Assembly (NCBI RefSeq): GCF_002252565.1
Contig: NZ_NPML01000011.1
Span: 186,001-250,000, forward strand
Reading direction: 5' to 3'
Source of the DNA: Petroclostridium xylanilyticum
GTDB taxonomy: Bacteria; Bacillota; Clostridia; SK-Y3
Length of the DNA stretch: 64,000 nucleotides
Shown here: piece after piece, positions 12,998 to 35,834 of the stretch
How the letters are laid out: each line of letters starts with the position of its first letter
Position numbering within the stretch: position 1 is the stretch's first letter
Position numbers and translations under genes: made by a program
The notes under the pieces: model-generated
The model's database searches: none
The model's input: only the letters and a program-made list of their open reading frames with translations
What the model was told of the DNA's origin: nothing

Positions 12998-13637
12998 TAT
13001 TCTTCATCTCACCTACTCTGAAATTCTTTATTATTTCTTCTGGGACTTGCGCCTCTTTTATTGTTACTGCCAAATCCGATTGAATTTTATCAATTTTTAT
13101 TTTTTCAATGATCGTATGAATATTATTTTTAAAATTATTATCTATAATAAGATCAGCCTTATGCATCACTTCACTTGCTGATTTTTTAATGGGCACATTC
13201 CCTGTATTCTTTAACATTATAAAGCACCCGGGTCTGACAACATTACGAAGACTGTTGGATTCACAGATTATTAAAGTATGTGGAGGAGTTTTTGTCATAA
13301 AATACTTAATACCATCATAAATATGTGTCTTTAAGGTTTTAAGCCAGTACACTTTTTCTGCACCTGCTGCCAGTAAAAAGGAAGTATCTTTATTAACATT
13401 TGGATTCGTTTCTTCTACTATTTCGAAGTTTCCTTTTACACTAGAACAAACTCCACATCCTTCACCACCTCTTGGACATTTTCCATCTCTTTCTTGAATT
13501 GTGGTTACTTTTAGTCCGACGATAGGAAAACTATTTTTCCATTGCTGAATCATTGCAATAGCAAGAGTTGTTTTACCGCTATTACGGCCTGAAGAACCGA
13601 TTAAAAGCATTTGTGGAATATGTAAAAGCTCTTCCAT
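12990..13637 (-). CDS. MobB-like P-loop GTPase, cofactor biosynthesis
   Basis: Related to MobB, which assists nucleotide attachment to molybdopterin. The P-loop GSSGRNSGKTTL is at 13-24. A cysteine cluster CPRGGEGCGVC (about 54-64) is not typical of E. coli MobB and could bind metal. The C-terminal half has an Asp- and Asn-rich segment followed by a short tail. It has 215 residues; the ATG at 13637 has GGGAAGGA upstream. It is translationally coupled to the MOSC-MogA gene. It lies 163 bp downstream of the KAS III gene, so it may belong to the cluster transcript. Confidence 0.78.
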   Translation of the reverse strand: MEELLHIPQMLLIGSSGRNSGKTTLAIAMIQQWKNSFPIVGLKVTTIQERDGKCPRGGEGCGVCSSVKGNFEIVEETNPNVNKDTSFLLAAGAEKVYWLKTLKTHIYDGIKYFMTKTPPHTLIICESNSLRNVVRPGCFIMLKNTGNVPIKKSASEVMHKADLIIDNNFKNNIHTIIEKIKIDKIQSDLAVTIKEAQVPEEIIKNFRVGEMKNNE

Positions 13638-17194: not shown

Positions 17195-18552
17195 TATTGT
17201 TTTACCTTGTCTTTGGCGAGAATTTCATTTAGCAGTTCAGTAAATTCATTTTTAATTTTTTGAGTTAAACAATTTCTATCATTATACTTCACAAAATACA
17301 ATGTTAATGTACCCTTATATCCTGAGATAAGCAATGATGGGAATCCATGGACTCCTGCAGATGGAATAACAGATATACTATCGATACCCTCTCCAAAGGG
17401 CTTTAGATAATCATCTAGCTTTCCAAAATTAGTTACTCCCATCCCTGAGTATGATTGCATTGCCAAACCATTCATTATTTTACTCATAATTTTTTCTAGA
17501 AGGCCAACTGGAAATATGCTTGTTAAAAGGATTGGATAAAAAAAACCCAAACCAAGAGGTCTTTTCTTTAAAGCCTTGAAATCTTCTGAAATTTTATACA
17601 GATTATCTATATCTTTACTATTTATCATAACTGGCTCAGGCGCAAAATAATTAGCTATACTTAATGCATCCTCTTTAAAATACCTTCTCAGATCAACCAA
17701 CATTCCTGTAGCCAGTTGAGAATTAGGTTCTTCTAAGTCCATGTTATATTTATTAGTGAGTTTTAATACAAGATATAAAAATATATCATTTACTGTGAAT
17801 TTAAAAGGTTTATACAAGTCTTTTAATTTATTAAGGTCATTATTACTGATCATAATTTTTTCAATACCTACATTGTTGTAGTCAATATTCGTATCATTGA
17901 TATTGTCGAGTTCCAGTACAGGCTTTATAGGTTCCATTGTATTAACTTTTTTACGCATTAAAGAAATAGTTTCAAAGAAATTAGCCATACTGATAGAAAA
18001 TACTAGTTTGGATATTTTTCGTACATTTCTCCTTGGCGGAGTACATGTTGTATTATTTAAAATAGCATTATAATACTCTCCAATTATCTTTATTGCCTGT
18101 AACCACCCTCGCCCGTCAGCTAAACAATGATGCAAACAAAAAGCTATCATCTTATTTCCAATTTGTTCATTATAAAATATCTTTACTTTGAAAGGCGGTT
18201 CACTTTGTATGTTTATATACTTATCCTTTAACTGAATAAATTGATTATATGCTTCATCATAAAAAGAATCTTTATCCTGAAAAGAATTATTATCTACACA
18301 GATTGTTTTGATAAATTGATTGACATCAAGATTTTCTATTGGTACCCATTTATCCCTCCAATACCCCCTGGATATTTTGCATGATAAAATTGGTATGTCC
18401 TTTACAGCTTGTTTTATACTCTCTGCCAAAATTTTAATGTTAAAATCATCTTTTACATAAAGTAAGATATACCAAGTATTACATGTTGCATTATCTTCCA
18501 TAATACGCATGCAGCTGTCCATAACATTTGCTTTTATAAACTTACTCTTCAT
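17194..18552 (-). CDS. Condensation/PapA-like acyltransferase
   Basis: Paralogue of the downstream gene with the canonical motif HHCLADGRG (about 141-149), so it should be catalytically competent. It shares GYWRDKWVPIEN and the latch-region VTNFGKLDDY. It has about 452 residues from the ATG at 18552, which has GGGGG 7 bases upstream; a GTG at 18555 is the other candidate. Relatives transfer acyl groups to alcohols, glycolipids or polyketides. Two such enzymes together suggest two acylation positions, or a heterodimer. Confidence 0.82.
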   Translation of the reverse strand: MKSKFIKANVMDSCMRIMEDNATCNTWYILLYVKDDFNIKILAESIKQAVKDIPILSCKISRGYWRDKWVPIENLDVNQFIKTICVDNNSFQDKDSFYDEAYNQFIQLKDKYINIQSEPPFKVKIFYNEQIGNKMIAFCLHHCLADGRGWLQAIKIIGEYYNAILNNTTCTPPRRNVRKISKLVFSISMANFFETISLMRKKVNTMEPIKPVLELDNINDTNIDYNNVGIEKIMISNNDLNKLKDLYKPFKFTVNDIFLYLVLKLTNKYNMDLEEPNSQLATGMLVDLRRYFKEDALSIANYFAPEPVMINSKDIDNLYKISEDFKALKKRPLGLGFFYPILLTSIFPVGLLEKIMSKIMNGLAMQSYSGMGVTNFGKLDDYLKPFGEGIDSISVIPSAGVHGFPSLLISGYKGTLTLYFVKYNDRNCLTQKIKNEFTELLNEILAKDKVKQ

Positions 18553-18615
18553 CACATTTCCCCCTTATGCGATTAGGTTAAGCAATTCAATAGGGTTCTT
18601 TTATACTTTTGACGT

Positions 18616-19320
18616 TTAGACTGTTAGTAATGCTGATGCAAAAACATAGTCTTTCTCAAATTTTACTCTTATTTTAATAAGGTATTTTAAATTATCAATA
18701 CTCAAACTATATTCCACGTCATTAGCACTAGGATCAATATTAACGGAAAAATTATTAAATCCAAGAGAAAGCCCCACACCTATGGCTTTACAAATCGCTT
18801 CCTTTTGCACCCAGGCTTTATAAAAGGATCGTATCCGGTTTAATTTATTATACTTGCTATATATAGCCAGCTCATCTGGTGAAAAAACACTGCTGGCTAA
18901 GAGGAAGTGATTCAGCTTTGGATTTATTTTTTCTATATCAACACCGATATCTCCATTTTTAGCTATACCGACAAATAAATATTCTTTTGAATGTGAAATA
19001 TTAAAATGGAAAGCTTTATTCACACTATAAGAAATAAGCGGTTTCCCATAATCAGTATATTCATATTTTATTTCATAAGGATTTATATCTAAAAAACTAC
19101 TATGAATAATTCGTGTAATACCTTTACGCAAGCAAAATAAACGTCTTGTTTCTTCATTTCTTATTTCTTGACTCTTTCTTGTCTCTTCATCTGAAAGGCA
19201 CTGCTTGATAACTTCTATATATGTATAAAAATCCCTCACATCAATAATCCATGCATTGTAATCCTTTAGGTCTGGTATATGAGATAGAAAAATCTTATTT
19301 TTAATGTCCCGTAACGACAT
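18616..19320 (-). CDS. Sfp-type 4'-phosphopantetheinyl transferase
   Basis: Activates carrier proteins by adding the phosphopantetheine arm; here its obvious partner is the free ACP at 29186-29494. The motifs GVDIEKI (126-132, with Asp128 and Glu130 for magnesium) and WVQKEAICKA (170-179) define the Sfp family. It has 234 residues. A dedicated Sfp enzyme marks a secondary-metabolite cluster rather than housekeeping lipid synthesis. No Shine-Dalgarno sequence is visible. Its ATG follows the flavodoxin stop by 6 bp, so translation is probably coupled. Confidence 0.93.
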   Translation of the reverse strand: MSLRDIKNKIFLSHIPDLKDYNAWIIDVRDFYTYIEVIKQCLSDEETRKSQEIRNEETRRLFCLRKGITRIIHSSFLDINPYEIKYEYTDYGKPLISYSVNKAFHFNISHSKEYLFVGIAKNGDIGVDIEKINPKLNHFLLASSVFSPDELAIYSKYNKLNRIRSFYKAWVQKEAICKAIGVGLSLGFNNFSVNIDPSANDVEYSLSIDNLKYLIKIRVKFEKDYVFASALLTV

Positions 19321-19326: not shown

Positions 19327-19824
19327 TTAATGCGTAGAAGAAACACATTTCATGAGTTCTTCAACTTTTTTTTCATCAATGTTATTGGGATGCTCCGGGT
19401 CCAGTTTTAATTTCTTTACAAGAATTGATATCATCATCCTGATAAAAAAGTTCTGTTTTTTTACATCTACTTTACCACCTAAATAAAAAATCTCATACCT
19501 GTTTGATGGAATATAATTCTTTACGCTGCGACTGACAATTTTTTCGTACTCTGATTCAGACCCTAAAGCATGAACAAAAAAGATAATTTTTTTAGATTTT
19601 AAAATTGACGTATTTTTTTCTATAAATTTAATAACATCAGGTGCCAAACTTCCTGCATAAACTCCAGACCCAATAAATACTCTGTTATATTGATTTAGAT
19701 TTATAACAGGTTTATCCTTTATATTAAATACATCAACCTTATTTTTTGCTGCCATCTTCATTTTTTCTGCAGTTTCTTTTGTAGTACCGCCCTCTGTACT
19801 ATACACAATAACATCTTTGATCAT
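19327..19824 (-). CDS. Soluble flavodoxin domain protein (HemG-like)
   Basis: A 165-residue flavodoxin fold with VIVYSTEGGTTKETAEKM (5-22) as the FMN phosphate loop and IGSGVYAGSL (about 51-60) as the flavin loop. The form is closest to the flavodoxin_5 family that includes HemG. No membrane segment. In this setting it could deliver electrons to the radical SAM enzyme or the AOR. The ATG at 19824 has GAGGGAT upstream. The role is inferred from context only. Confidence 0.82.
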   Translation of the reverse strand: MIKDVIVYSTEGGTTKETAEKMKMAAKNKVDVFNIKDKPVINLNQYNRVFIGSGVYAGSLAPDVIKFIEKNTSILKSKKIIFFVHALGSESEYEKIVSRSVKNYIPSNRYEIFYLGGKVDVKKQNFFIRMMISILVKKLKLDPEHPNNIDEKKVEELMKCVSSTH

Positions 19825-19840: not shown

Positions 19841-21031
19841 TTAAATTAAATTAAATTCCTTAACTAATTCTTCAACAACTTTTTTACATCCCATTGAATT
19901 AAGAAAAAACTGTCTCATTTTCTCCAAGCCTGATTTTGTACTATCATCATTGAGCACTTTGATAATTTCTTCTCGTAATTTATCTGTTCTAATTTTTTTA
20001 TAGGGATAAAAGCTGCCACATTTGTGATATTTGACAAGTCTTCCCATCTCATAAGTCTCATCACTACCAGGACAAACCAACAGCGGAGTCATGCCAAGGA
20101 TAGAATCAGTAACGCTGCTGGCTCCACCATGACTGATAAATAACACAGACTTACTTATCATATTTTTATACTCTGTTGGAGTCAAGTTGTCATATATTGT
20201 TACATGGTCGGGAATAGTTTTCATGTTAATTTTATTCTGTTTATTACCGGCCAATGTGATAGCCACCTTATAGCCAAGATCTTTGGTCGCATTTATACAA
20301 GCCTCCCATAATGCATTGTTAGACTGAACAGTTCCTATACTAACAAATATAAGTTTATTATCTTTTGGCAAAATACTATGTTCAGTATTTGTAGGTCCCA
20401 TAAACCTTACATTATCAGGTATGGCATGTCCATTAGGATGAAACTCTTTAGAGGTAGTAACTATGGTAAATTCACCTTGATGGTCCATGATATCCGGTGG
20501 GTTATCACATAAATTACCATATTTCTTATCTATGCGTTTTTTAATCATCATGCTTTGAATAAAGGTTGGCATGTTTAATAGCATAGATTTAATTGCTCCA
20601 GGTGGTATTTTCTTTTCTCCGGCACCTACAAATATAGTAAACAAGAGAGCTAAAGGAATATTGTACAACCGTGCAACAATTTTTCCCCATATACTTAAGG
20701 GGTCACACATAATCAAATCCGGTTTTTCTTTTTCGACTTCTTTTATTAGAAACGGCATCAGCATATCTGTGAATGAATACAGCATATGCAGTAGAGCTAC
20801 TAGATTCTGTATTATTTTACCTGAAATTTTAGCTTTCTCGCTGTAATATTCTGCAAAATTGTCAGGATATTTACGTACTTCAATATTGTTATATCCTTCA
20901 AATTTATGAAAATGTTCTTCAAGTGTATAATAAAGTAATTTAACATTCTTATCTGCCAGTTCTTTACATAAATTGATTGATACATTTACATGTCCTACAG
21001 CCGGGAAACTAATAAACATTACCTTTTTCAA
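19841..21031 (-). CDS. GT1-family glycosyltransferase (MGT/YjiC-like)
   Basis: Transfers a nucleotide-activated sugar to a small lipophilic acceptor. The 396-residue GT-B fold begins MFISFPAVGHVNVSINL, whose His15 (GHVN) is the usual catalytic base. The C-terminal donor loop reads ISHGGASSVTDSIL followed by LLVCPGSDETYEM. It is distinct from the second, RhlB-like glycosyltransferase of the cluster, so the product may carry two sugars. The start is TTG at 21031 behind GGGGGAAG. Confidence 0.9.
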   Translation of the reverse strand: MKKVMFISFPAVGHVNVSINLCKELADKNVKLLYYTLEEHFHKFEGYNNIEVRKYPDNFAEYYSEKAKISGKIIQNLVALLHMLYSFTDMLMPFLIKEVEKEKPDLIMCDPLSIWGKIVARLYNIPLALLFTIFVGAGEKKIPPGAIKSMLLNMPTFIQSMMIKKRIDKKYGNLCDNPPDIMDHQGEFTIVTTSKEFHPNGHAIPDNVRFMGPTNTEHSILPKDNKLIFVSIGTVQSNNALWEACINATKDLGYKVAITLAGNKQNKINMKTIPDHVTIYDNLTPTEYKNMISKSVLFISHGGASSVTDSILGMTPLLVCPGSDETYEMGRLVKYHKCGSFYPYKKIRTDKLREEIIKVLNDDSTKSGLEKMRQFFLNSMGCKKVVEELVKEFNLI

Positions 21032-21117: not shown

Positions 21118-22338
21118 TTAATATTTTTTAAAAACAAGTGTGGCATTATGTCCTCCAAAGCCAAAGGAATTTGATAGTGCTGCACGAATATCCTTTTCCC
21201 TAGCCTGGTTCGGAATGTAGTCAAGATCCAATTCCGGATCAGGATCATGATAATTAATTGTTGGTGTAAGTATCTTATTATAAATACTTAATACAGTTAT
21301 GATACCTTCAATAGCTCCAGCAGCGCCAAGTGTATGCCCAACCATTGACTTTGACGATGATACGCCTATTTTTTTCGCTCTTTTACCAAAGCATTCTTTG
21401 ATGGCCATTGTTTCATATTTGTCATTTAAATAGGTAGATGTGCCATGTGCATTGATATAATCAATTTCATCATAATTTACCCTAGCATCTGCCAGCGCCA
21501 TTTTCATGGTTTTTGCCATTCCACCCCCATTTTCCTTAGGAGCGGTAATATCTGCCGCCTCGCTAGTTATTGCATACCCGGCAAGCTCAGCATATATAAC
21601 TGCATTTCTCTCACGCGCTATTTTTTCTGATTCCAATACCATTACCCCGGCGCCTTCGCCCATTACAAATCCATCACGTGATAGGGTAAAAGGACGGCAT
21701 GCGGTTTCCGGTGAATCATTCCTTACAGACATGGCCATTATTTGGTTAAAACCTTTAATGTATTCAGGTTCAATACTTGAATCAACTCCACCTGCAATAA
21801 CAATATCAGCAAGACCGGATTTTATCATTTGATGACCTAGTCCAATGGCATAGGCAGAAGAAGCACAGGCTGTAGAAACATTAAAATTGGGACCTTCCAA
21901 ACCGTAAAGAAGGGAAATCCAGGCGCTTGGCGCATTCGGCATTGATTTAACAACAATGTGAGAATCGGACTGGTTTCGTTCCATGTCATTATATGAAGTA
22001 GTGATTACCCCCATGATAACGGCAATTCGCACCCTATCATAATTATCAAAATTGATACTGCTATTCTTAATTGCTTCATCAGCCGCAACCATTGACATTC
22101 TAGTTGTTCTTGTCATTTGTTTTCTATTTCTTCGCGGTATTATTTTTTCAGCAAGTTGTTCAAACTCCGGACTAACTTCCGCAGCAATCTGAGTCTCATG
22201 ATTGCTGGCATCAAATAAAGATATTTTCTTAACACCTGAGCGGCCTGCCAATAGATTTTGCCAGGTTGTTTCCAGATTCACTCCAAGAGAGGTGACCATC
22301 CCCATCCCGGTTATAACAGTTTTATTTTCATTATTCAT
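21118..22338 (-). CDS. 3-oxoacyl-ACP synthase II (FabF-like)
   Basis: Elongating condensing enzyme: adds two carbons from malonyl-ACP. The Cys-His-His triad is intact: Cys158 (STACASS), His298 (NAHGTST) and His335 (MVGHTLG), in 406 residues. It is the only KAS II in the cluster and no chain-length-factor partner is present. The start is set at the ATG at 22338 because GGAGGG lies 8 bases upstream; a longer TTG-initiated frame (22365) would bury this site. It lies between the dehydrogenase-like gene and a glycosyltransferase. Confidence 0.93.
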   Translation of the reverse strand: MNNENKTVITGMGMVTSLGVNLETTWQNLLAGRSGVKKISLFDASNHETQIAAEVSPEFEQLAEKIIPRRNRKQMTRTTRMSMVAADEAIKNSSINFDNYDRVRIAVIMGVITTSYNDMERNQSDSHIVVKSMPNAPSAWISLLYGLEGPNFNVSTACASSAYAIGLGHQMIKSGLADIVIAGGVDSSIEPEYIKGFNQIMAMSVRNDSPETACRPFTLSRDGFVMGEGAGVMVLESEKIARERNAVIYAELAGYAITSEAADITAPKENGGGMAKTMKMALADARVNYDEIDYINAHGTSTYLNDKYETMAIKECFGKRAKKIGVSSSKSMVGHTLGAAGAIEGIITVLSIYNKILTPTINYHDPDPELDLDYIPNQAREKDIRAALSNSFGFGGHNATLVFKKY

Positions 22339-22378
22339 AGACACACCCTCCACTAAGAAACTCAAAATTTATTTGTTA

Positions 22379-23521
22379 TCAATTATTAAAAACAGCTAAA
22401 TCTAGTGGTTGATAAATATCATCCTGCAACCTTTGGCGGTTATCTAAAAGGCACTCTATAATCTTTTGATGTCCTATGCGTTTCAGCATACTGGCGGGAT
22501 CTTCAGATAATCCTAGAACTTCTTTAACCGCTTCATTGATTTTATCTTTTTCAACATTTTGATTATGTATTATAAAAGCTATTTCATTTATAAGAAGGCT
22601 TTGCAACCTTAGTATTATATTTCGCTTATAATCATTTAACTCTGCTTCAGAAACTTTTTTAAACTCTACCGGATGCTCCTGTTCATAGGCACTAAGTCCC
22701 TTATTGCCGATCCCTCCCGGATAACTCTCCTCTATTAGTTTTTTGCCTTTATTATATAAAGGAATGAAAAGCTTTCTATAACGGTCATTAACAAAATTTT
22801 CAATGCTCTCTAAAATAATGCTTATGCCGGTAGAATCAACAATTTCAAATAATCCCAAGCTTAACAGTTGCTCTTTTAACAGCTTATCAATTTCTTCTAT
22901 AGTTAAATAATGTTCTTCATAAATTCTATATGCCTGTGTTGTTAATATCGAAAGCATTTTAGTCAAAACCATGTTTGCATTTTCTTCTAACTCAAAAGGG
23001 TTTTTACCGATATTTGTCAATACACTGCGTACCATTTCAACATAATCTTTTCCGGTAGACGACGTTTTATTGATTTCAACGGTTCTCATAACCTTTACCG
23101 GATAAAAGAAATGCATTCCCATGCATCTGTCCTTCTTTATACATTTTTCAAAAACAATCTGTAGCGGTATGGATGAGGTGTTGGATGCTAAAATACAGTC
23201 CTGTCTTACGATGGCCTCTACCTTTTCAAAAACATCCTGCTTCAGTTTTTTATCTTCATAAACCGATTCAATAACGAGGTCACAGTTTTTCAAAGCAGAT
23301 AAGTCATTGGATATTATAAAGGAGTTAGTTTTTTTTTCATAGGTAGATTCAGTTATATAACCTCTCTTTAGCATTTTTTTTAATTGTTTTTCAATGGAAG
23401 CTGTTATCTCTTCAATATCCTCCGATTTCCTACAAATCATAACCATATTATAGTCAAATTGGAAGAATTCATTAAATATATCTCTTCCCATTTTTCCTTT
23501 GCCTATAATACCGATTTCCAT
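22379..23521 (-). CDS. 3-hydroxyacyl-CoA dehydrogenase-like protein, altered active site
   Basis: A divergent 380-residue relative of the dehydrogenase at 14940-15791. The N-terminal Rossmann motif GIIGKGKMG (4-12), the LASNTSS stretch and His137 (GMHFFYP) are retained. At the catalytic Asn position the family's PGFxxNR reads NANMVLTKM, so Thr187 replaces Asn. The C-terminal part is longer than usual, with a second helical dehydrogenase-type region. It may bind hydroxyacyl or ketoacyl thioesters with reduced or changed activity. It overlaps nothing; the ATG has GGGGAG upstream. Confidence 0.85.
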   Translation of the reverse strand: MEIGIIGKGKMGRDIFNEFFQFDYNMVMICRKSEDIEEITASIEKQLKKMLKRGYITESTYEKKTNSFIISNDLSALKNCDLVIESVYEDKKLKQDVFEKVEAIVRQDCILASNTSSIPLQIVFEKCIKKDRCMGMHFFYPVKVMRTVEINKTSSTGKDYVEMVRSVLTNIGKNPFELEENANMVLTKMLSILTTQAYRIYEEHYLTIEEIDKLLKEQLLSLGLFEIVDSTGISIILESIENFVNDRYRKLFIPLYNKGKKLIEESYPGGIGNKGLSAYEQEHPVEFKKVSEAELNDYKRNIILRLQSLLINEIAFIIHNQNVEKDKINEAVKEVLGLSEDPASMLKRIGHQKIIECLLDNRQRLQDDIYQPLDLAVFNN

Positions 23522-23539: not shown

Positions 23540-24943
23540 TTATACTGTTTTATCATTGTGATTTTCATACATAGACAAAAATTTCTTACCTGATTTTGCA
23601 CTAACCTTATACAACTCTGCGATTTTACCATAAAAAACATCTTCAGGAAGCTTTGTTTTTAAGACACTATTGGTAAGATTATAGTATTCATAATCTCTAA
23701 TAATTATTTGATCCTGCAGTTCATCCCATTGTTCTGTCCCAGGGAATGGCGTCAAAATAGTCAAAGCGGAATTATAAATAGGGTTGTCTTCTATAAAACG
23801 TCCAACTCTCTCAAAATCCTCTTCATCATAATCAGGCCGAATAATATAGTTTCCATTTACATAGATTCCGGCTTCGTTTAATATCTTTAACGCTTCTTTT
23901 ATTGTTTCGACGGAACAGTCTTTTCCGTATTTTTCTAGCTCGTCGTCGCTTGTAGCCTCAAGACCACAAACTGTCACTTTTAATCCGGCTTTAGCGGCTA
24001 GTTGTATGATCTCGGGGTGCCGTACTACTGTGTCTGTTCGTACATCACCCATATAGGCATGATCTTTATTCAATCCTTCTTCAATAATCCTAGTGAATAA
24101 TTCCTTCGTTTTTTTAATATCGCCAAATGTGTTGGCATCACAAAACCGTATCAAATAGTATTGTTCCATTTGTTTGAGTTCATTGATAATGGATTCAATA
24201 TCACGGTGGAAATAAAACCCGTTGGTCATCCTCCATAAATAACAAAAATTACATCTATGTGTACAGCCTTGTGAAGTACTAATATAATGAATTTTCTTTT
24301 TTATATGTGGTATTGTATAGTTATATTTATCAGTCAGAGCCCTATTTGGCAGCATTTCATCAAGCAGATAATTCTCCTTGAATTCTTTATAACTCATGTC
24401 GCTTAACGGCCTAGTATAATACAAACTATTTCCTGTGTTGATGGCCAGTCCTGGGATTTTTGAGTAATCGGCTTTCTCCCTGTTCTTTTTAAATTCTTGA
24501 ACAATATGGTAATAACTGTGTTTCCCTAAACCTACGGATATGATATCTGCTTTTGAACCTATGAAATCCTGTGGACATGATGTAGGGTGAATACCGCCGA
24601 TAGTAGTCAGAATCTTATTGTTTACTTTTTTTACTGTTTCAAGCAGTTTGATTACACAATTATACTGTGCAGTTAAACAGGTGAAACTGACAATATCAGG
24701 TTTAAAAATATTGATTTCTTTAATAAGCTCCTCTATATAATCATAATCAGGATTAATATCCATTTCTGCCTTTTGATCAAGAATGATAACATTCTCTTCG
24801 GGCAGCATTCCTGCAAGAACATTCAATGCTAAAGGAGGTCCTACCAATACCCGCTTTGCAATGGCTTTTCTACCCTCTTCATCACAATAGTCATATATTA
24901 TGAATCTATTAGGAATTGGTGGGTTTACAAGCAATATATTCAT
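23540..24943 (-). CDS. Cobalamin-type radical SAM enzyme
   Basis: 467 residues. The N-terminal domain (about 1-150) resembles the B12-binding Rossmann domain of class B enzymes (MNILLVNPP, GPPLALNVLAG, TIGGIHPT). The radical SAM core carries the cluster motif CTHRCNFC (Cys227, 231, 234). Relatives methylate unreactive carbons, form rings or join chains on lipids such as hopanoids and, in anammox clusters, ladderane candidates. Here it sits among acyl-chain enzymes, so it probably modifies the lipid or polyketide chain. The exact reaction cannot be read from sequence. Confidence 0.9.
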   Translation of the reverse strand: MNILLVNPPIPNRFIIYDYCDEEGRKAIAKRVLVGPPLALNVLAGMLPEENVIILDQKAEMDINPDYDYIEELIKEINIFKPDIVSFTCLTAQYNCVIKLLETVKKVNNKILTTIGGIHPTSCPQDFIGSKADIISVGLGKHSYYHIVQEFKKNREKADYSKIPGLAINTGNSLYYTRPLSDMSYKEFKENYLLDEMLPNRALTDKYNYTIPHIKKKIHYISTSQGCTHRCNFCYLWRMTNGFYFHRDIESIINELKQMEQYYLIRFCDANTFGDIKKTKELFTRIIEEGLNKDHAYMGDVRTDTVVRHPEIIQLAAKAGLKVTVCGLEATSDDELEKYGKDCSVETIKEALKILNEAGIYVNGNYIIRPDYDEEDFERVGRFIEDNPIYNSALTILTPFPGTEQWDELQDQIIIRDYEYYNLTNSVLKTKLPEDVFYGKIAELYKVSAKSGKKFLSMYENHNDKTV

Positions 24944-24968: not shown

Positions 24969-26087
24969 TTATTCAACGTACTTAAGTGTAAATCCAGCTT
25001 GCATAAACTTACTTACTTCCATTACAAAGCTAAATATCAAATCACCATTTTCAAAACTGCGATTTTTTAATAGATAATCAATTGACATGATAGCCGCCGG
25101 TGGTCCCGGATAACCGATTTGTTCTACTGCACTGTAAAATTTATCTAGTCCAATTCCTAATTCAGTGCATTCTTGCATTATATGCTCACGAACGGATTTT
25201 GACGGCATATTAATCACAAAATACTTTAAAGGAGTGAGATCGATATTCTGAAGAGCAAGCATTCTTTTTAGTGCATTATAAAAAATTGTCTTGCCGTTGC
25301 TTTCTGTATGAGCAAAGTCTTCCATCTGATTTAAATAAACCTGTCTAATATGATGGGCACCTTCCTCATAATTCTTTAGAGGATTATTCCAATGGTAAGG
25401 GAGCCTGTTCCCCATGGCTGACTTCTTTTTTCCTCCCGCAGACTCAATATAGGTGTTTTCCAAGTAAAAGCCTTTTTTCTTTTCATCGTCAGCTGTTAGA
25501 ACAAATGCACCGCCACCGTCACATAAGTACCAGCGTAAAAAGATATCTTCTTTAGTAACTTTCTCCTGATTATAAAACTCAGGGACAAAAAACGAACTGG
25601 AAACACATGAAGAAACAACTAGTGCATTTTTATATTCACCAGTTTGTAAATATGTATGGGCTAATTTTATAGCTTTATAAACAGATGTACAATTTGCATG
25701 GATATGAAACTCACCGCAGATTTCAATTGCAAGTTCTTCCTGTATTCGTGTTGATATTGCAGGCATTTGCTCAGAATAATTACCGCCATAAATTAGAAGA
25801 TCGATGTCTTTTGCTTCCATTCCGGCATCTTCCAAGGCTAACTTGGCAGCTTTTACAGACAAACTTAAATTATCGTCATCAAATGTGCGGGTTTTATTAT
25901 TGAATGCATAATAAACATACTCTACACCAAGCATTTCGGCCATCAATGGTTGAACTTTTTCTATCCACTTCTGAAGTTTTACCGGCGCTTTCGTAAGCTG
26001 TCCGAGGTAATCATTGATTTGGTCAAATTTTATGGGTTGTCCGGGAAGATATGAACCTGTTCCCGCTAGTCTCACATTTTTCCACAT
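24969..26087 (-). CDS. KAS III-like protein lacking catalytic His and Asn
   Basis: A 372-residue thiolase-fold protein. Cys133 (HANCTSVYK) stands at the nucleophile position. The position of the KAS III His is Asn293 (FVINMPSK) and that of the Asn is Tyr326 (IGYPGPP). Such changes abolish decarboxylative condensation in canonical enzymes, while the Cys could still carry an acyl group. Known variants of this fold act as acyltransferases or starter-selecting enzymes. The gene overlaps the upstream crotonase gene by 16 bp. ATG 26087 follows GGGAGGGGG. Confidence 0.85.
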   Translation of the reverse strand: MWKNVRLAGTGSYLPGQPIKFDQINDYLGQLTKAPVKLQKWIEKVQPLMAEMLGVEYVYYAFNNKTRTFDDDNLSLSVKAAKLALEDAGMEAKDIDLLIYGGNYSEQMPAISTRIQEELAIEICGEFHIHANCTSVYKAIKLAHTYLQTGEYKNALVVSSCVSSSFFVPEFYNQEKVTKEDIFLRWYLCDGGGAFVLTADDEKKKGFYLENTYIESAGGKKKSAMGNRLPYHWNNPLKNYEEGAHHIRQVYLNQMEDFAHTESNGKTIFYNALKRMLALQNIDLTPLKYFVINMPSKSVREHIMQECTELGIGLDKFYSAVEQIGYPGPPAAIMSIDYLLKNRSFENGDLIFSFVMEVSKFMQAGFTLKYVE

Positions 26088-26824
26088 GTTATGTACCCCC
26101 TCCCTTGCTTATTTTTAATACTCAGATAAATTTCATTAAAATTTTTTAAATACATCTTGATATTTGTTTTGGAATATGTCATTTTACTTTGTAAAATATA
26201 TTTCATCAATTCTTCACAATAGGACAAAGTCTCTTTTTTACTGACAATACCATCAACAATTCCCATTTTCAAAGCATCTTCTGCAGAAAAGGTTTCACCG
26301 CTTAACACTAATTCAAGAGCTTTCCCAAGACCGCATAATTCTACGCATCTTAAAGTACCACTCAAAGCTGGTATAAACCCAAATGTTGACTCAGGTAGAC
26401 CCAATGTACTGCCGTTGCCACAAATACGGATATGGCTGCACAAGGCCAATTCCAAGCCTGCCCCAATACAAAAACCGTTAATAGCGCTTATAACCGGTAT
26501 ATTATGGTTGTAAAAAAAATCAAATGAATTCCGATCTTGCTGATGCCCCATGGGATAGGTTACCAAATTACCATCACTATCAAATGAAGCTTGATTTGAA
26601 ACAAGTTCCTTAAGCCTGTCTACCTCAACACCGGAACTATAATGCCTCCCGTTGCCCGTTATTATGATTCCTTTAACTTTGGAATGAGCAATATATCGAG
26701 TGACAAGTTCACTAAGTTCTGTAAGAAACAAAGTTGTCATTTTATTTGCAGGCGGATCGTTAATGACAACATATCCTATATCTTCTTTTTCTTCAAAAAT
26801 AACTTTGTTCAATTCAATCTTCAT
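26072..26824 (-). CDS. Enoyl-CoA hydratase/isomerase (crotonase)
   Basis: A 250-residue crotonase fold. Oxyanion-hole segments SSGVEV and INGFCIGAGLELAL are present, and a Glu stands in the catalytic position of LPESTFGF (about 143-150). It can hydrate or dehydrate enoyl/3-hydroxyacyl thioesters, here probably replacing a FabZ-type dehydratase. It is the first of three crotonase-fold proteins in the cluster. Only a weak GAGG site precedes its ATG, which lies 1 bp after the upstream stop. Confidence 0.92.
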   Translation of the reverse strand: MKIELNKVIFEEKEDIGYVVINDPPANKMTTLFLTELSELVTRYIAHSKVKGIIITGNGRHYSSGVEVDRLKELVSNQASFDSDGNLVTYPMGHQQDRNSFDFFYNHNIPVISAINGFCIGAGLELALCSHIRICGNGSTLGLPESTFGFIPALSGTLRCVELCGLGKALELVLSGETFSAEDALKMGIVDGIVSKKETLSYCEELMKYILQSKMTYSKTNIKMYLKNFNEIYLSIKNKQGRGYITCGKM

Positions 26825-26825: not shown

Positions 26826-27515
26826 TTACGACCTCATTTTCAAATAACTTTTAACAATCAAAGCGCAAAACTGTTTAGCTTCTTCTTCAAGCAGTAATTT
26901 CCGGTCAGCCTTTAAACCAAGAAGTTTATAATTGTTAAAGCATTTTATTATAGATTTAATATGATAATTATCCTTATTACTTATGATTCTATTTACATAT
27001 TTTTGAACTTCATTTTGTATATCATCTATATCAATTATTTGATTTATTAGCCGCTGGACATAAACATCATCCAAATATAAGGTCTTTTTCAATAGGTTCC
27101 TGTATCCGTCGACATTTATTTCATTTCCCATAAGCAGCTGACACCGCTCTTCAAAATTAAAAACAAATTTGGAGTCGTCATCCGGAAACCGAATAGAAAT
27201 ATTTTTTCCACTCAGACGGATGTCGAACATCATCATCAACTCCAATAATTCATCGTAACAATCAGTATCAACTACTATAATAGAAAGAATGGGAAGTGAA
27301 TTCAGCCATTTATATAACTCCAATTTTTGAGCTTGGGGCTTATTGCATGGAATATGCTGACTATTCCATATAACCGCAAAAACAACAATTTTATCACTGG
27401 CGATATTTTCATCGATTAATTGTTTATGGCTAAAAATATCATTGAAATCAGTAATGTCTAAAAAAGCAATAGAGTTTTGTATGAGCAAATGAGATTGTCC
27501 GTTTACTGTAACCAT
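26826..27515 (-). CDS. Degenerate crotonase-fold protein, probably non-catalytic
   Basis: 229 residues with no clear full-length family match. The middle part follows the crotonase pattern: LPILSIIVVDTDCYDELLEL, then MMMFDIRLSG and ISIRFPDD, mirroring the usual IPVIAAVNG...GGGLELAL, ACDIRIAS and FGFPE. The glycines of the oxyanion hole are gone and the catalytic Glu is Asp or lost. It may be a structural or regulatory partner of the two intact hydratases beside it. The frame is intact and has a good ribosome site, so it is not simply decaying. Confidence 0.6.
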   Translation of the reverse strand: MVTVNGQSHLLIQNSIAFLDITDFNDIFSHKQLIDENIASDKIVVFAVIWNSQHIPCNKPQAQKLELYKWLNSLPILSIIVVDTDCYDELLELMMMFDIRLSGKNISIRFPDDDSKFVFNFEERCQLLMGNEINVDGYRNLLKKTLYLDDVYVQRLINQIIDIDDIQNEVQKYVNRIISNKDNYHIKSIIKCFNNYKLLGLKADRKLLLEEEAKQFCALIVKSYLKMRS

Positions 27516-27516: not shown

Positions 27517-27912
27517 CTATCCCTCTTTATCTAATTCATTTTTAATAAAGTCAGGAAGTTCATGCACTATTCTTTCAAAGGATACTAAAATCATTTTTCC
27601 GGTTGCTTTGGCAACCTTCTTATTTGTGTTTACAAAATAAATATCTTGATCGGTTATCAAGTACTGGTCTTCATATTTCCAATGGGTTTTTACAACTGCT
27701 TTGTCAAACATCTTTAGTTCACGTATATAACGGATATTTGTCTCAACAACTACCGGAAAAAGCATTTCGCTTTTCAAAAAATCCATCCATTTCATCTCAT
27801 CAAAAAATTTCCATCGGGCTTCTTCTAAATAATTCAAATAAACAGCGTTGTTGACATGACCAAATGAATCTAATTCATAGCCTCTGACTTCAAAGAAAAA
27901 CTCATGCTTCAT
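27517..27912 (-). CDS. 4HBT-type acyl thioesterase (hot-dog fold)
   Basis: A 131-residue hot-dog thioesterase like YbgC/4HBT. The motif YELDSFGHVNNAVYLNYLE (12-30) includes the catalytic Asp15 and the HVNN helix start. It would release the finished chain from ACP or CoA. Its ATGA overlaps the stop of the START-like gene, so the two are coupled. Confidence 0.92.
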   Translation of the reverse strand: MKHEFFFEVRGYELDSFGHVNNAVYLNYLEEARWKFFDEMKWMDFLKSEMLFPVVVETNIRYIRELKMFDKAVVKTHWKYEDQYLITDQDIYFVNTNKKVAKATGKMILVSFERIVHELPDFIKNELDKEG

Positions 27913-28427
27913 TTTACCAATTCTCCTTGCTTCTTTCTTACGGTTTGGTTAATCAGAATCTTTTTTAAAATCGATAGTCTCCAGCACATATAAATATCAT
28001 GCCCCAAACAAACAATACCATAGTATAAATGAATTAACCAATTTATACCTGTAAGATTCATTTCATGATTAAGAAGTATCCCATTTTCTTTTTGAATAAA
28101 CTCAAACTTCCCTTTTCCTGTGAGCAAACCTGAAAAAACAACGCTAAATCCCTTGTTATCGGGAAGGATTTCTTCACATATTATTTTATAGCTAAACGGA
28201 GGAAATATAATGTGAAATGTAGTAACACATCCTGGATCAAAATACGCTTTATCGGAAGTCATCCATACAAATGGAAGAAAGTTAAACCATTTGTGCAATT
28301 TTTTATTATCATAAAGCTGTTCGATAAAATCCTCAATAGTTGTTTCATCTGACGCCATAAACAAATGACTAACTAAATTGTATTCTTTTTTTTCTTTAGA
28401 TAGCAAGCTTTCGAACATTTTTATCAT
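27909..28427 (-). CDS. START/SRPBCC-like protein
   Basis: 172 residues without catalytic signatures. The pattern of strands with FPPFSY, GFSVVFSGLLTGKGKFEF, and a long C-terminal helix (WRLSILKKIL) fits the SRPBCC helix-grip fold, which encloses hydrophobic ligands and includes polyketide cyclases and lipid-binding proteins. The ATGA overlap with the thioesterase suggests joint action on the same chain. Assignment rests on overall pattern and is moderate. Confidence 0.6.
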   Translation of the reverse strand: MIKMFESLLSKEKKEYNLVSHLFMASDETTIEDFIEQLYDNKKLHKWFNFLPFVWMTSDKAYFDPGCVTTFHIIFPPFSYKIICEEILPDNKGFSVVFSGLLTGKGKFEFIQKENGILLNHEMNLTGINWLIHLYYGIVCLGHDIYMCWRLSILKKILINQTVRKKQGELVK

Positions 28428-28438: not shown

Positions 28439-29179
28439 CTATATATTTTCAACTAACTTTAAAAACATTTCACTTTCGTATTCCATAGCGATTGCGTCTT
28501 TCTCGACAGCCGATTTATTTACTGATTGTATAATACTCCTTATTTGTTGATGTGATTTATTTTTCGTTAATTCATTTATAAATTGAACTGCCGCAGATAA
28601 ATGTGTTTTATTAGGAACAATTTTGTCAACCAAACCTAAACTATAAGACTCTTCCCCATTGATAGTCCTTCCAGTTATAATTATCTCTAACGCTTTGCTT
28701 TTACCGACTATTCTCGACAACCTAATGGTACCAGTTAATCCTGGCATAATGCCGATATTGGATTCAGGAAAGGCTAATAAAGCATTAGCCGTGCCTATCC
28801 TGAACTGACAACTTAAAGCAATTTCCAATCCGGCGCCAAAACATATTCCACTTATTGCCGCTACAGTGATAATAGGCAGCGATTCTATGTAATTCAGGAT
28901 ATCCCTACCCTTTTTCAATGCTTCTCTTAGATAACCGGGATTGTCTTTATTGGCTCTGATGTTATCCACATCGGCTCCAGCTGAAAAATGCCTTCCCTTT
29001 CCAGTTATTATTAAACCTTTTAGTCTTTGTTCGGATATCCACTCTTTTAAAAAACTCAAATCCAAAAAATCCGGCTGGGGTATTTTATTCTGGCTTCCAT
29101 TATCAATTGTAAGAATTCCAATTTGATTTACTTCTTCAAAACAGACTACCCCTGATTTTTTTTCTTCTGAATACGTCAT
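28439..29179 (-). CDS. Enoyl-CoA hydratase/isomerase (crotonase)
   Basis: A 246-residue crotonase with intact FSAGADV and ISGICFGAGLEIAL oxyanion segments and a catalytic-position Glu in FPESNIGIMPG. It is the second catalytically plausible hydratase of the cluster and lies directly behind the ACP gene (6 bp). Having two may mean chain-length division, or hydration plus isomerisation. Confidence 0.92.
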   Translation of the reverse strand: MTYSEEKKSGVVCFEEVNQIGILTIDNGSQNKIPQPDFLDLSFLKEWISEQRLKGLIITGKGRHFSAGADVDNIRANKDNPGYLREALKKGRDILNYIESLPIITVAAISGICFGAGLEIALSCQFRIGTANALLAFPESNIGIMPGLTGTIRLSRIVGKSKALEIIITGRTINGEESYSLGLVDKIVPNKTHLSAAVQFINELTKNKSHQQIRSIIQSVNKSAVEKDAIAMEYESEMFLKLVENI

Positions 29180-29185: not shown

Positions 29186-29494
29186 TCATGCTCCCAAATT
29201 TACAATATCATTCTCATGCTGATAAATTAAGAAAGTAGTTTCAATGACTTGTCCAATCGTTTCTGCCGGATTCTTAAGCAAATACTTTCCAATTGTCTGA
29301 AGCTGAATATTTAAATCATACTTCTTTTTAATTAGTTCAACAAGTTCAACAAACAATAAAGAATCACCATCTAAATCATCGGTAATGTTTGTTTCTTCAT
29401 TTAATTCAGATAATTCAACTTCACATTCCTCTGCAAAAAACTCATAAATCATTTCTCTTAATTCTTCTTTGATTTCTGGTGTTAAATTTCTCAT
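29186..29494 (-). CDS. Acyl carrier protein
   Basis: A free-standing 102-residue carrier protein, longer than the usual 75-85. The phosphopantetheine attachment site is Ser45 in DLDGDSLLFVELV, with acidic helix II following. It should hold the growing chain for the KAS enzymes of this cluster and be activated by the Sfp-type enzyme at 18616-19320. The ATG has AGGAGG upstream. The C-terminal extension beyond helix IV (about 85-102) is unusual. Confidence 0.93.
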   Translation of the reverse strand: MRNLTPEIKEELREMIYEFFAEECEVELSELNEETNITDDLDGDSLLFVELVELIKKKYDLNIQLQTIGKYLLKNPAETIGQVIETTFLIYQHENDIVNLGA

Positions 29495-29563: not shown

Positions 29564-30844
29564 TTACTTCAATATCCCATGTTTTCTCGCCAATTTTTCC
29601 ACTATATTGCAAAAATCATCTATAGGATCGCTACAATCAAATTTGCAAGTAATTTCTCTGCAATTTTTGGCAACAACACTTGAATTTATAAGTTTATCCA
29701 GTTTATTTGCTATATCTTGTGCATTATATTTACTCCAATTTATGGTATCCCCTACTCCTAACTCTTTTAATCTATATGCGGTATCATAATGTTCAGGAAA
29801 CGTAGGTACAACAAGATGTGGAATACCTGCCCTTAATCCCTGTGAACAGGTACCTATCCCCCCATGATATACCATAGCAGCAGCTCGTGGAAGTATTGTA
29901 TCTAAAGGAATATATCTAAATACCTTTACACATGAAGGCAAATTTTTAGGAACTTTTTTGTCATAACATCCAACAAATATACCTCGTTTTTTTAGTTTTT
30001 CACAAGCATATGCAGATTCTATAAAGAATTTATCATTTTCCTGCAACTGTGATCCCGGATTAAATATAATGGGTGGTTCACCCTCTGCTATATACTCTTC
30101 AACTTCCCTCGGTAATTTTTGAGTTTGTTCTCCTTCATAAATCGGAAAGCCCAGTACTTCAGTTTGAGGAGGCCAATCAGGTTGTGGTTTTGCAAACCAC
30201 TCAGGTGTCATACAGATGACTTTATCTGGTGAAAACCTTAGTTTATATTCCTTGTATTTACTCAGCTCGATATCACCGTCATGGAATTGCTCAAATAGTG
30301 GTTTAAAAAGAATGAAGTCTTCAAAAAATGATCTCCAAAATCGTTTGACAAACCTAGGCATCCACTCAGGCAAATTGGGTTGTTGAGCCGGGCGGTACTT
30401 TGAATGAAAATAAAAAGGCACTAATACCACAGTTATTCCCGGAATATTTAATTTATCTTGTGCATACCTTGCTCCATAACATATATAATTATTAATGAGC
30501 AGAGTATTTCCTGGTTGGCAGTTATTATATATATACTCGTATATTGGCCTTGTCGAATTAAGGAATAATTTCCCAAGAGACTCAATAACCTTTTTTAGAT
30601 TGGCATTTTTGGCCGCACCTTGTTCCCATATTAAACCTTCATTTACAATATATGATAAAGCATTTTCAAAATCTTCTTTAGAACTTACAGAATGAAATCC
30701 AAGTTCTGCTTTGCGTATCTCGGCTTCAAATTTAGAATTAGCTAATAATACGACATTATGTCCTCTTTTTCGAAGAGCAGTTCCAATTGAAATATATGGA
30801 AGAACATCACCCCAGGTACCTGCTGTTGAAATTATAATGTTCAC
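29564..30844 (-). CDS. RhlB-like rhamnosyltransferase (GT1 family)
   Basis: A 426-residue GT-B glycosyltransferase. The strongest resemblance is to RhlB of rhamnolipid synthesis: AGTWGDVLPYISIG at the N-terminus, then MTPEWFAKPQPDWPP with LGFPIYEG, where RhlB has FPAWFAPPQQDWPQ and TGFPLFDG. The donor loop YHGGIGTCSQGLRAGIPHL follows. RhlB transfers dTDP-L-rhamnose to hydroxyalkanoyl lipids, and the whole dTDP-rhamnose operon lies in this window. Start is GTG at 30844 behind GGAGAG. Relatives that use other sugars exist, so donor specificity is inferred. Confidence 0.88.
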   Translation of the reverse strand: MNIIISTAGTWGDVLPYISIGTALRKRGHNVVLLANSKFEAEIRKAELGFHSVSSKEDFENALSYIVNEGLIWEQGAAKNANLKKVIESLGKLFLNSTRPIYEYIYNNCQPGNTLLINNYICYGARYAQDKLNIPGITVVLVPFYFHSKYRPAQQPNLPEWMPRFVKRFWRSFFEDFILFKPLFEQFHDGDIELSKYKEYKLRFSPDKVICMTPEWFAKPQPDWPPQTEVLGFPIYEGEQTQKLPREVEEYIAEGEPPIIFNPGSQLQENDKFFIESAYACEKLKKRGIFVGCYDKKVPKNLPSCVKVFRYIPLDTILPRAAAMVYHGGIGTCSQGLRAGIPHLVVPTFPEHYDTAYRLKELGVGDTINWSKYNAQDIANKLDKLINSSVVAKNCREITCKFDCSDPIDDFCNIVEKLARKHGILK

Positions 30845-30899: not shown

Positions 30900-32987
30900 T
30901 TATGAATTTAATGATAATTTTTTCTTTTCTTTCAAATATTCTTTTCTGTCTTTTTTGTCTTTTAAATCAATCAACAAGCAAAATATTTTGGAAAGTATAA
31001 GAGCTTTAACCCTATCTTTAAATGAAAACTTTGCATTTAAACTTACTTGTTGCAATAAGTCTTTAATACTTTCTACATTATTGCTATATAGTACATTTGC
31101 TTTTTCAATATATTCTTCCAAGCCTAATTCTTTAAACCTTTTACCAGTAGGTTTACCTTCACCGGTCAACCCCCTGAACTTAAAATACTCTGGAAGCATT
31201 CCTGGATTGTCACGAACTTTAATTGTTGTTTCCTCAATATACTCATCGTCAATATTGTCATCTTTTTTTCTTACAGGCCACTCATAATCATCTAATCCTA
31301 TTCCACACAGTACATTAAAAGCATTTTGCAATTGATAAATACGCTCACTTGCATAAAATATATCTTCATCTTTTAAATCAAGATTATATAATCCATTCAT
31401 AACTTCAGCAAATTCATCAAAATATGCATGTCCCATATTAGGAATTGGATGGATAGCAAAAATACACAATCCCAATGCATCTACTGCATATTTATAATTT
31501 TCATGCCACCAAACAACTCGTCCTTTTTTTTCCGGGGTCCCGATTTCTTTTTTCGCATCTACTTTAAAAATATATTTTGCAACTAGATCTGAGAAATAAC
31601 CTCCGAAAAGCATTGTAAAAGGAAAATTTTTTAAATGATCTCCACCTCTGGTAGAAGTTATATAACCTAATGACCAAGCTAATCTTGCTTTAGCTTGCGT
31701 ACCAGCTGAAGATTTCTTAATACAAAAGGCATATTGCTCGGCATTTATTTCTTTTGCAGCCCTATATACACCTTCTGCCATCAAATCACCTATGCCCTCA
31801 CGGCTTACAAGCTTGTGTATGAGATATTCAACATCATCGGTATTGCCGAATTTAACTGTTTTGCCGTCAGTATCTTCTGGTTTAATAATACCTCTCTCTT
31901 GACATTCCAGAATCAGACCCAAAACACCCCCAAGTTCAATGTCATCCATTCCATAATAGTCACTTAGCAGTTTTAAATGTATAATGCTAGGCCAGTCAAA
32001 TATTCCAACTGCAGGACCAACAGATGTTATAGAACCATAATCTATTTTTTCACCCTTTTCACCTTTATACTTTCCTTCTTTTATTTCAAATTTCTTTGCG
32101 CAAGCTACAGGACAAGCATAACATGCTGTTTTTTTAGTTACATATTCATATTTAAATTTATTTGAATAAATGTTTTCAGCTTTTGAATCGCTACCAGATT
32201 GGCAATTTCTTACAGGTAAATGTCTAATCTTGTTATACCTTTCTACTAGAAATATTGTTCCTTCAATATTTGTATTTTTGGCAAGCATAGAAGAACGGCA
32301 TGTTTTTAACCATAATTTTTTTATTTTCATAATTTTATTTGCATCGTATACCGGAGGTTTACATTCATTTTTTTCAATAACAATAGCCTTTAAATTTTTT
32401 GACCCCATAACACATCCCATACCTGTACGGCCGGCAACATGATTTTCAGACATAATTATACTGGCAAAACGTACAAGCTTCTCTCCTGCAGGACCAATAC
32501 AGGCTACTTCGCAATTCTTGCCATGACGCTCTAATAGAATCTTTGTTGCTTGATTGGTTAAAGTCCCCCATAAATCAGTAGCGTCTAAAATCTTAATTTC
32601 TCCTTGTTTATTTATATGTACATATACCGGCTTTTCCGATTTTCCCATAAATACTAGGTGATCAATTCCAACAGAACGCATATTTATTGTAAAATTTCCA
32701 CCTATACTTGAATCCCCATAAATATCGGTTATGGGGCTCTTTGCAGTTACAGTACACCGGTTTCCCGCCAATAATCCCGTCCCCACAGCCGGCCCAACGC
32801 CAAAAATAAGTACATTTTTTTCCGATAAAGCGTCATGGTATACAGCTTCTGAATCAAAAAGTATCTTTGTATTAATACCGGTACCTCCGATATATTTTTT
32901 CCTTACTTCAGGAAATATTTCTTCGCGATATATTCTATTATTGGACAGGTCAATATATATTATATTGTTATCTTTTGTATTCACCAT
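30900..32987 (-). CDS. Tungsten aldehyde:ferredoxin oxidoreductase family enzyme
   Basis: AOR-family enzymes interconvert aldehydes and acids (or reduce related substrates) with a tungsten bis-pterin and a 4Fe-4S cluster. Cluster ligands are Cys289, Cys292, Cys296 (CYACPVAC) and Cys508 (DALGLC). The N-terminal domain shows IGGTGINTKIL and the GRTGMGCVMGSKNLKA stretch. At 695 residues it exceeds the usual 600-620 because of a Lys-rich tail with a hydrophobic segment (about 655-690) that could be membrane-associated. It sits between the acyltransferase and glycosyltransferase genes and is probably part of the pathway. Confidence 0.93.
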   Translation of the reverse strand: MVNTKDNNIIYIDLSNNRIYREEIFPEVRKKYIGGTGINTKILFDSEAVYHDALSEKNVLIFGVGPAVGTGLLAGNRCTVTAKSPITDIYGDSSIGGNFTINMRSVGIDHLVFMGKSEKPVYVHINKQGEIKILDATDLWGTLTNQATKILLERHGKNCEVACIGPAGEKLVRFASIIMSENHVAGRTGMGCVMGSKNLKAIVIEKNECKPPVYDANKIMKIKKLWLKTCRSSMLAKNTNIEGTIFLVERYNKIRHLPVRNCQSGSDSKAENIYSNKFKYEYVTKKTACYACPVACAKKFEIKEGKYKGEKGEKIDYGSITSVGPAVGIFDWPSIIHLKLLSDYYGMDDIELGGVLGLILECQERGIIKPEDTDGKTVKFGNTDDVEYLIHKLVSREGIGDLMAEGVYRAAKEINAEQYAFCIKKSSAGTQAKARLAWSLGYITSTRGGDHLKNFPFTMLFGGYFSDLVAKYIFKVDAKKEIGTPEKKGRVVWWHENYKYAVDALGLCIFAIHPIPNMGHAYFDEFAEVMNGLYNLDLKDEDIFYASERIYQLQNAFNVLCGIGLDDYEWPVRKKDDNIDDEYIEETTIKVRDNPGMLPEYFKFRGLTGEGKPTGKRFKELGLEEYIEKANVLYSNNVESIKDLLQQVSLNAKFSFKDRVKALILSKIFCLLIDLKDKKDRKEYLKEKKKLSLNS

Positions 32988-35741: not shown

Positions 35742-35834
35742 CAAGCGCATCACCTCTCCATTCTATTTTTGAAAAACACTTCATTATTAAATTAACGTAC
35801 TTTTAGCAAATATAAATATTCAGTTTAATTTTTA

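Follow-up and report, generated by a model that had tools for sequence, protein, structure and literature searches.

A predicted cobalamin-dependent radical SAM enzyme and its constant KAS III-like partner in a gene cluster of Clostridia

Petroclostridium xylanilyticum carries a member of a new clade within a class already known, the cobalamin-dependent radical SAM enzymes, in a gene cluster for which no published description was found in the literature searched. The gene lies on the reverse strand (23540-24943) of the 64,000-nucleotide stretch of DNA analysed here, which is called the window. I read its product, referred to as rSAM below, as a chain-tailoring cobalamin-dependent radical SAM enzyme of a glycosylated secondary-metabolite cluster, with a probability of about 0.75. 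Judging from its genes, the cluster, which certain oxygen-shunning Clostridia carry, seems to make a carbon chain decorated with sugars, and rSAM belongs to its conserved core. It is probably an anaerobic, type II-like system with stand-alone ketosynthases (KS), acyltransferase (AT) and acyl carrier protein (ACP), and the product would be polyketide- or fatty-acid-like and probably unsaturated.

The rSAM gene and its domains

The rSAM ORF has 467 codons and an ATG start, which is preceded by a strong Shine-Dalgarno ribosome-binding site (GAGTGAGGGGATGAAGGA-ATG). Between the window gene and its nearest relatives, there are 0.82-0.93 differences per synonymous site and 0.10-0.12 per non-synonymous site, which shows that purifying selection on the protein is strong. 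Since orthologues that are 55-81% identical also exist in other genera, the ORF is not a product of chance. The initial annotation had called the gene product a B12-type radical SAM enzyme, and this was borne out. Both the B12-binding domain (PF02310, 73.2 bits, cut-off 32.1) and the Radical_SAM domain (PF04055, 68.4 bits, cut-off 29.5) score well above the Pfam cut-offs, and the C227-X3-C231-X2-C234 motif does not vary across 12 orthologues. With an N-terminal B12-binding domain and a radical SAM domain carrying CX3CX2C, the protein qualifies by its sequence as a class 1 cobalamin-dependent radical SAM enzyme. No second copy was found in the same genome at E 1e-5, and a search of the window for a cobalamin riboswitch or another RNA family found none.

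Distribution of the clade

The rSAM clade is small and strongly conserved; its 12 members are all from Clostridia and are 55-81% identical to the window protein. Among 391 Clostridia genomes, three orthologues were found, at 81%, at 61% (Alkaliphilus transvaalensis) and at 56% (Clostridium sp. 12(A)), and the next identity drops to 30%. When 84,980 species genomes were scanned with two conserved peptide patterns, which could let divergent members escape, 11 loci emerged, again all in Clostridia. Three of the 11 are apparently the genomes with orthologues in the 391-genome set. The loci belong to Alkaliphilus, Lacrimispora, [Clostridium] aerotolerans, [Clostridium] polysaccharolyticum, Clostridium sp. 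12(A), and MAGs. At E 1e-30, a search of 60 related genomes yielded no close relative. A translated search of a plasmid collection gave distant homologues only, which were usable as references.

Relationship to known families

All NCBIfam scores of the window rSAM are far below the cut-offs, and the same families match in all 12 members. By this comparison, the clade is a new subgroup of the known class and fits no NCBIfam family. The highest scores were obtained with the models for BchE (TIGR02026, 136.1 bits, cut-off 481) and HpnR (TIGR04367, 134.4 bits over 377 residues, cut-off 650), followed by MJ_1487 (85 bits, cut-off 251). The initial annotation had proposed a tree with lipid-acting enzymes, among them HpnR, HpnJ, ladderane-cluster proteins, and tetraether synthases. 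The kinship with HpnR turned out to be real but distant. The kinship with the last three was rejected on the family models: HpnJ (TIGR03471) gives 70.7 bits against a cut-off of 577.6; the ladderane-associated B12 radical SAM model (TIGR04072) gives 32.3 bits against 360, with the radical SAM core alone being matched; and the library includes a model for the tetraether synthase Tes (NF045702), to which rSAM has no match at E 0.001. In so far as the library has models for the hopanoid C-2 methylase HpnP or the archaeal GDGT ring synthases, none of them appeared among the NCBIfam matches.

Models for the MiaB/RimO tRNA methylthiotransferases and for radical SAM enzymes of RiPPs score weakly, at 24-49 bits (26.1, 28.3, 43.9 and 49.1) against cut-offs of 250-750, and such kinship was rejected as well. 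The initial annotation had regarded a close relation to these families as evidence against its reading, and no such relation was seen. That rSAM modifies a peptide, a tRNA or a protein, for example as a methyltransferase, and sits in the cluster by chance is very improbable in view of these low scores; moreover, no precursor peptide was recognised, and the gene strictly co-occurs with the KAS III-like gene (see below).

The named reference closest to rSAM by BLAST is ThnL (167 bits, with 28% identity across 432 residues). BchE (125 bits) and HpnR (112 bits) follow. The ThnL sequence used here is the best plasmid match to rSAM, a gene on the Streptantibioticus cattleyicolor megaplasmid pSCAT (L050:14968-16392). 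As read from the DNA, it lies directly before a ThnK/TokK-type gene and after a beta-lactam-synthetase-type (ThnM-like) gene, and because of this position I take it to be ThnL of the thienamycin cluster. The PLSDB record (NC_016113.1) is nearly unannotated, with no annotation in this stretch, yet it reads as the thienamycin cluster there. Among the references used, ThnL and HpnR match each other best (183 bits). PMC13331322, which cites Sinner et al. 2022, describes ThnL as thioether-forming and counts it with the non-methyltransferases.

In a maximum-likelihood tree, the 12 orthologues sit on one long stem (1.4-1.5). The tree places them on one side of a supported split (96/99 in the full tree, 96 in the reduced tree) together with ThnL, HpnR, and radical SAM proteins from clostridial tandem arrays, whereas BchE, ThnK, ThnP and others are on the opposite side. 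The AU test separates none of the three candidates: with the clade constrained to group with ThnL, HpnR or BchE, the p-AU values were 0.40, 0.27 and 0.21, and none was rejected. The tandem arrays themselves (L066:8165-16390, L067:7318-14143 and L065), found in several clostridial genomes, combine several cobalamin-type radical SAM genes with genes for GNAT acyltransferases and for a SAM methyltransferase. Some of their radical SAM proteins fall on the HpnR/ThnL side and others in a second radical SAM lineage.

Predicted structure and cobalamin binding

An AlphaFold2 model of rSAM was obtained with pLDDT 77.5 and pTM 0.79; it is weak in the cluster loop and at residues 414-426. The model has the fold of solved class 1 cobalamin radical SAM members over the whole chain, with Z 18-23 for MgmA (22.7), OxsB (21.8), TsrM (21.6), CysS (21.1), and TokK (18.5). 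These five differ from rSAM in sequence (13-19% identity) and in their substrates. The top structural match is AprD4 (Z 25.4, rmsd 3.7, 397 residues). AprD4 is a radical SAM enzyme whose B12-like domain holds no B12, and therefore the fold alone does not prove that rSAM binds cobalamin. Binding is nevertheless favoured by three features of the sequences. The B12-domain score (73) resembles those of ThnL (78), HpnR (83), and BchE (84) and exceeds that of ThnK (51); a GGxH stretch is kept in the rSAM alignment; and the organism's own genome encodes a cobyric acid synthase CobQ (562 bits, cut-off 309.9) and can by this measure make cobalamin.

It might be supposed from the AprD4 match and from the deoxysugar genes of the cluster that rSAM is an AprD4-like dehydratase or deoxygenase with a B12-free domain, possibly acting on an Rml-type sugar. 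This is improbable. The AprD4 family model gives 27.4 bits (cut-off 500) while the BchE and HpnR models give about 135, the B12-binding domain scores like those of true cobalamin enzymes, and the KAS III-like and HADH-like neighbours are constant while the sugar genes vary between clusters.

In TokK, Trp76 sits under the cobalt (PMC13331322). The aligned residue is Ala92 in the window rSAM and Ser in one orthologue. It is Trp in ThnK, Pro in BchE, Ala in HpnR as in rSAM, and Thr in ThnL in contrast to rSAM. In this alignment, the residue under the cobalt does not separate methylases from non-methylases.

The constant neighbours of rSAM

The rSAM gene lies between a dehydrogenase-like gene (HADH2) downstream and a KAS III-like gene upstream, just as the initial annotation had described (Table 1). 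Wherever the DNA of a related locus extends far enough, these three genes adjoin in constant order. The FabF gene is next in all loci except the Alkaliphilus transvaalensis cluster, where it sits elsewhere in the cluster. Of the 391 Clostridia genomes, four carry the rSAM gene, and the KAS III-like gene is present in precisely these four and, at E 1e-25, in no other. If the genomes are independent, the chance of this identical distribution is 1e-7 to 1e-9. The earlier phrase "amid acyl-chain genes" is right in that rSAM is tightly and repeatedly linked to acyl and ketide genes, but the setting is broader, a cluster of the secondary-metabolite type. Because of this linkage, the modification of a chain, which had also been proposed, is the natural reading, although the lipid models named at that time lack support.

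The KAS III-like protein keeps Cys133. All nine aligned homologues have Asn293 and Tyr326 in place of the His and Asn of the FabH triad, and ordinary decarboxylative condensation looks unlikely from these replacements. The protein aligns over its full length with the cyclohexanedione-forming ketosynthases StlD/DarB and has an FLRWxLxDGAGA-like motif. In contrast to StlD/DarB, it has neither the Cys-His-Asn site nor a score over 450. The composition of the cluster (a KS, an HMG-CoA-synthase-like protein, two crotonases, an ACP) is also reminiscent of an HCS-type beta-branching cassette. This was not adopted, because the KAS III-like protein hits HMG-CoA synthase models at 19-24 bits versus 101 for StlD/DarB and because FabF keeps its Cys.

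The wider cluster

All genes from 34044 down to 7094 are on the reverse strand, with gaps of -16 to 162 bases (Table 1). The AT, aldehyde oxidoreductase, ACP, both crotonases, thioesterase, phosphopantetheinyl transferase (PPTase), and glycosyltransferase recur in related loci wherever coverage allows. RmlA/B homologues are also present in several related clusters, while the two condensation-domain-like acyltransferases were seen only in the window and two other loci (L032 and L037). The Clostridium sp. 12(A)/Lacrimispora-type clusters have a two-subunit indolepyruvate-type ferredoxin oxidoreductase (L036:5566-7967), which suggests for them an aryl-acetyl-CoA starter absent from the window version. 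The A. transvaalensis cluster carries a sugar aminotransferase. Since the scaffold enzymes are constant while the starter and the sugars vary, I infer that the rSAM step acts on the constant part of the molecule.

Table 1. Genes of the rSAM cluster in the window
Feature	Position	Strand	Evidence
Exporter: HlyD-type adaptor, ABC ATPase (by eye), FtsX/MacB permease	2449-6881	-	
CDP-alcohol phosphatidyltransferase (7094-7750) and membrane flavodoxin	7094-8313	-	Pair kept in window, L032, L047
RmlD, RmlB, RmlC, RmlA (dTDP-L-rhamnose)	8453-11884	-	Sequence reading
Pterin cofactor genes: MoCF_biosynth/MOSC fusion, MobB-like (by eye)	12044-13637	-	PF00994 89 bits, PF03473 24 bits
FabH, starter ketosynthase, Cys-His-Asn triad intact	13800-14834	-	TIGR00747 293.6 bits, above cut-off; motifs
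HADH1, second 3-hydroxyacyl dehydrogenase	14940-15791	-	
Two condensation-domain-like acyltransferases	15788-17194, 17194-18555	-	Weak PF00668
Sfp-type phosphopantetheinyl transferase	18616-19320	-	PF01648 66 bits
Flavodoxin-domain protein, possible electron donor	19327-19824	-	PF12724 89 bits
Macrolide-family glycosyltransferase	19841-21031	-	TIGR01426 154.7 bits, cut-off 260
FabF-type ketosynthase, Cys-His-His intact	21118-22365	-	NCBIfam fabF 472.6 bits; motifs
HADH2, diverged 3-hydroxyacyl-CoA/ACP dehydrogenase-like	22379-23521	-	PF02737 156 bits; Ser116, His137, Glu149 invariant
rSAM, predicted cobalamin-dependent radical SAM enzyme, 467 aa	23540-24943	-	PF02310, PF04055, CX3CX2C, AlphaFold2 model
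KAS III-like, StlD/DarB type	24969-26087	-	PF08545 36.5 bits; NCBIfam StlD/DarB 101 bits (cut-off 450)
Crotonase 1, enoyl hydratase/dehydratase-like, both catalytic-position Glu	26072-26824	-	PF00378 117.9 bits; motifs
Conserved 229-aa protein, no Pfam/NCBIfam match	26826-27515	-	Weak PDB crotonase match, E 0.5
4HBT-type thioesterase	27517-27912	-	PF13279 67.2 bits
SRPBCC (helix-grip) protein	27909-28427	-	Not recognised by Pfam; AlphaFold2 pLDDT 87.2
Crotonase 2, enoyl hydratase/dehydratase-like, both catalytic-position Glu	28439-29179	-	PF00378 130.9 bits; motifs
Acyl carrier protein, DSL phosphopantetheine site	29186-29494	-	PF00550 30.9 bits
Glycosyltransferase, macrolide/EryCIII type	29564-30844	-	Family model, under its cut-off
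Aldehyde:ferredoxin oxidoreductase, tungsten type, CX2CX3C and GLC motif	30900-32987	-	PF01314 299 bits, PF02730 225 bits
Stand-alone malonyl-type acyltransferase, FabD-like, GYSMG motif	33055-34044	-	

The conserved 229-aa protein reads like a degenerate crotonase (LLELMMMFDIRL, FPDD) in which the glycine-rich oxyanion loop is absent. The model of the SRPBCC protein resembles a START domain (VIA Z 15.3) and the WhiE and TcmN aromatase/cyclases (14.5), and a role as a polyketide cyclase/aromatase is possible. Its gene evolves faster than its neighbours, with a dN/dS of about 0.23. A tungsten-type aldehyde oxidoreductase together with pterin-cofactor genes is unusual inside a secondary-metabolite-like cluster; the latter genes presumably serve the oxidoreductase.

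The PPTase, the trans-AT, the macrolide-type glycosyltransferases, the dTDP-rhamnose genes, and the MacB/FtsX exporter favour a glycosylated secondary metabolite over a membrane lipid, as far as gene content can tell. On the other hand, rSAM could be a hopanoid, ladderane or tetraether enzyme homologue that acts on fatty-acyl or glycerolipid chains, in accordance with the match to the HpnR model, the fatty-acid-type genes, and the CDP-alcohol phosphatidyltransferase conserved in three clusters. I consider this unlikely, given the failure of the HpnJ, ladderane and Tes models, the genes just listed, and a sporadic spread over unrelated clostridial families that suits a secondary metabolite. With the phosphatidyltransferase conserved, a lipid-like product is possible, and this enzyme and its flavodoxin partner could attach the product to a lipid.

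Proposed role and chemistry of rSAM

In the preferred reading, rSAM tailors the chain of a glycosylated secondary metabolite. FabH, FabF, AT, and ACP would build the chain, and the HADH- and crotonase-type enzymes would reduce and dehydrate it. An enoyl reductase was not recognised among the cluster genes, so double bonds may stay in the chain. rSAM would then act on the chain, either carrier-bound or free. By analogy with characterised class 1 enzymes, the reduced [4Fe-4S] cluster would cleave SAM, the resulting 5'-deoxyadenosyl radical would take a hydrogen from an unactivated carbon of the chain, and the substrate radical would encounter the cobalamin on the opposite side of the pocket. Either the flavodoxin or ferredoxin that the aldehyde oxidoreductase has reduced may supply the electrons.

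What would follow is less certain. C-methylation from methylcobalamin, as in HpnR, is tentatively placed first, being narrowly likelier than the formation of a C-C or C-S bond or a ring. Three points put it first. Most enzymes of the class are presumed to be methylases (PMC13142503); HpnR falls with the clade on one side of the tree; and a search for a conventional methyltransferase among the genes from 7094 to 34044 recognised none, so that any C-methyl group in the product would have to come from rSAM. Cobalt-assisted bond formation, as in ThnL, OxsB and BchE, is a close second and a serious contender at somewhat less than even odds: rSAM would join two positions of the chain, or the chain and a sulfur nucleophile, to give a ring, a C-C link or a thioether. 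ThnL and BchE are the two nearest named relatives in BLAST, and the conserved aromatase/cyclase-like SRPBCC protein and the KAS III-like protein without His and Asn hint at odd cyclisation chemistry. However, the methylase HpnR is nearly as close, most characterised members of the class methylate (PMC13142503), and the tree is compatible with ThnL, HpnR and BchE alike. Oxidation, hydroxylation or another reaction is an unlikely outcome.

A more specific idea, which I regard as doubtful, pairs rSAM with the KAS III-like protein that lacks His and Asn as the two enzymes of one module. Through a radical, cobalamin-assisted C-C bond, the module would close or couple a polyene bound to the ACP. I know of no counterpart to such an anaerobic polyketide cyclase.

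Comparison with known systems

ThnL has the same two domains, a similar length (474 aa), and a role in the biosynthesis of a small-molecule antibiotic, and the LWRMT, VRTDT, and PD[WY]xExDF stretches are common to ThnL and the window rSAM. However, ThnL acts on a carbapenem to form a thioether, and its gene has no KAS III or HADH neighbours. HpnR, the hopanoid C-3 methylase, shares the domain architecture with rSAM, but the identity is 24%, and neither a hopanoid substrate nor C-3 methylation is expected for rSAM. BchE, the anaerobic Mg-protoporphyrin IX monomethyl ester cyclase, is likewise a cobalamin radical SAM enzyme and performs an oxidative, ring-forming reaction under anaerobic conditions. 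In contrast to rSAM, it acts on a tetrapyrrole and lies across the main split, although the AU test does not reject a common grouping.

Few polyketide-type products of strict anaerobes are known, and only a handful of cobalamin radical SAM enzymes have a known non-methylating reaction. The compact clade with its constant KAS III-like partner is present in the culturable A. transvaalensis, [Clostridium] aerotolerans, [Clostridium] polysaccharolyticum, and Lacrimispora species, with [Clostridium] aerotolerans DSM 5434 and Lacrimispora algidixylanolytica SPL73 among the carriers. The cluster suggests that the pathway has its own substrate pool and exporter, and it offers a route to asking whether cobalamin radical SAM enzymes act on polyketide-type chains. 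The position on the HpnR/ThnL side turns the choice between methylation and bond formation into a direct experimental question.

Other features of the window

A gene for a LuxR-type (GerE) regulator (34956-35753, reverse strand) lies just upstream of the cluster and is a candidate cluster regulator. Farther away (49788-51631, reverse strand), two overlapping ORFs in different frames resemble fragments of a single glycoside hydrolase, GH31-like by eye. The middle of the protein is missing and there is a frameshift near 50330; this is probably a decayed gene.
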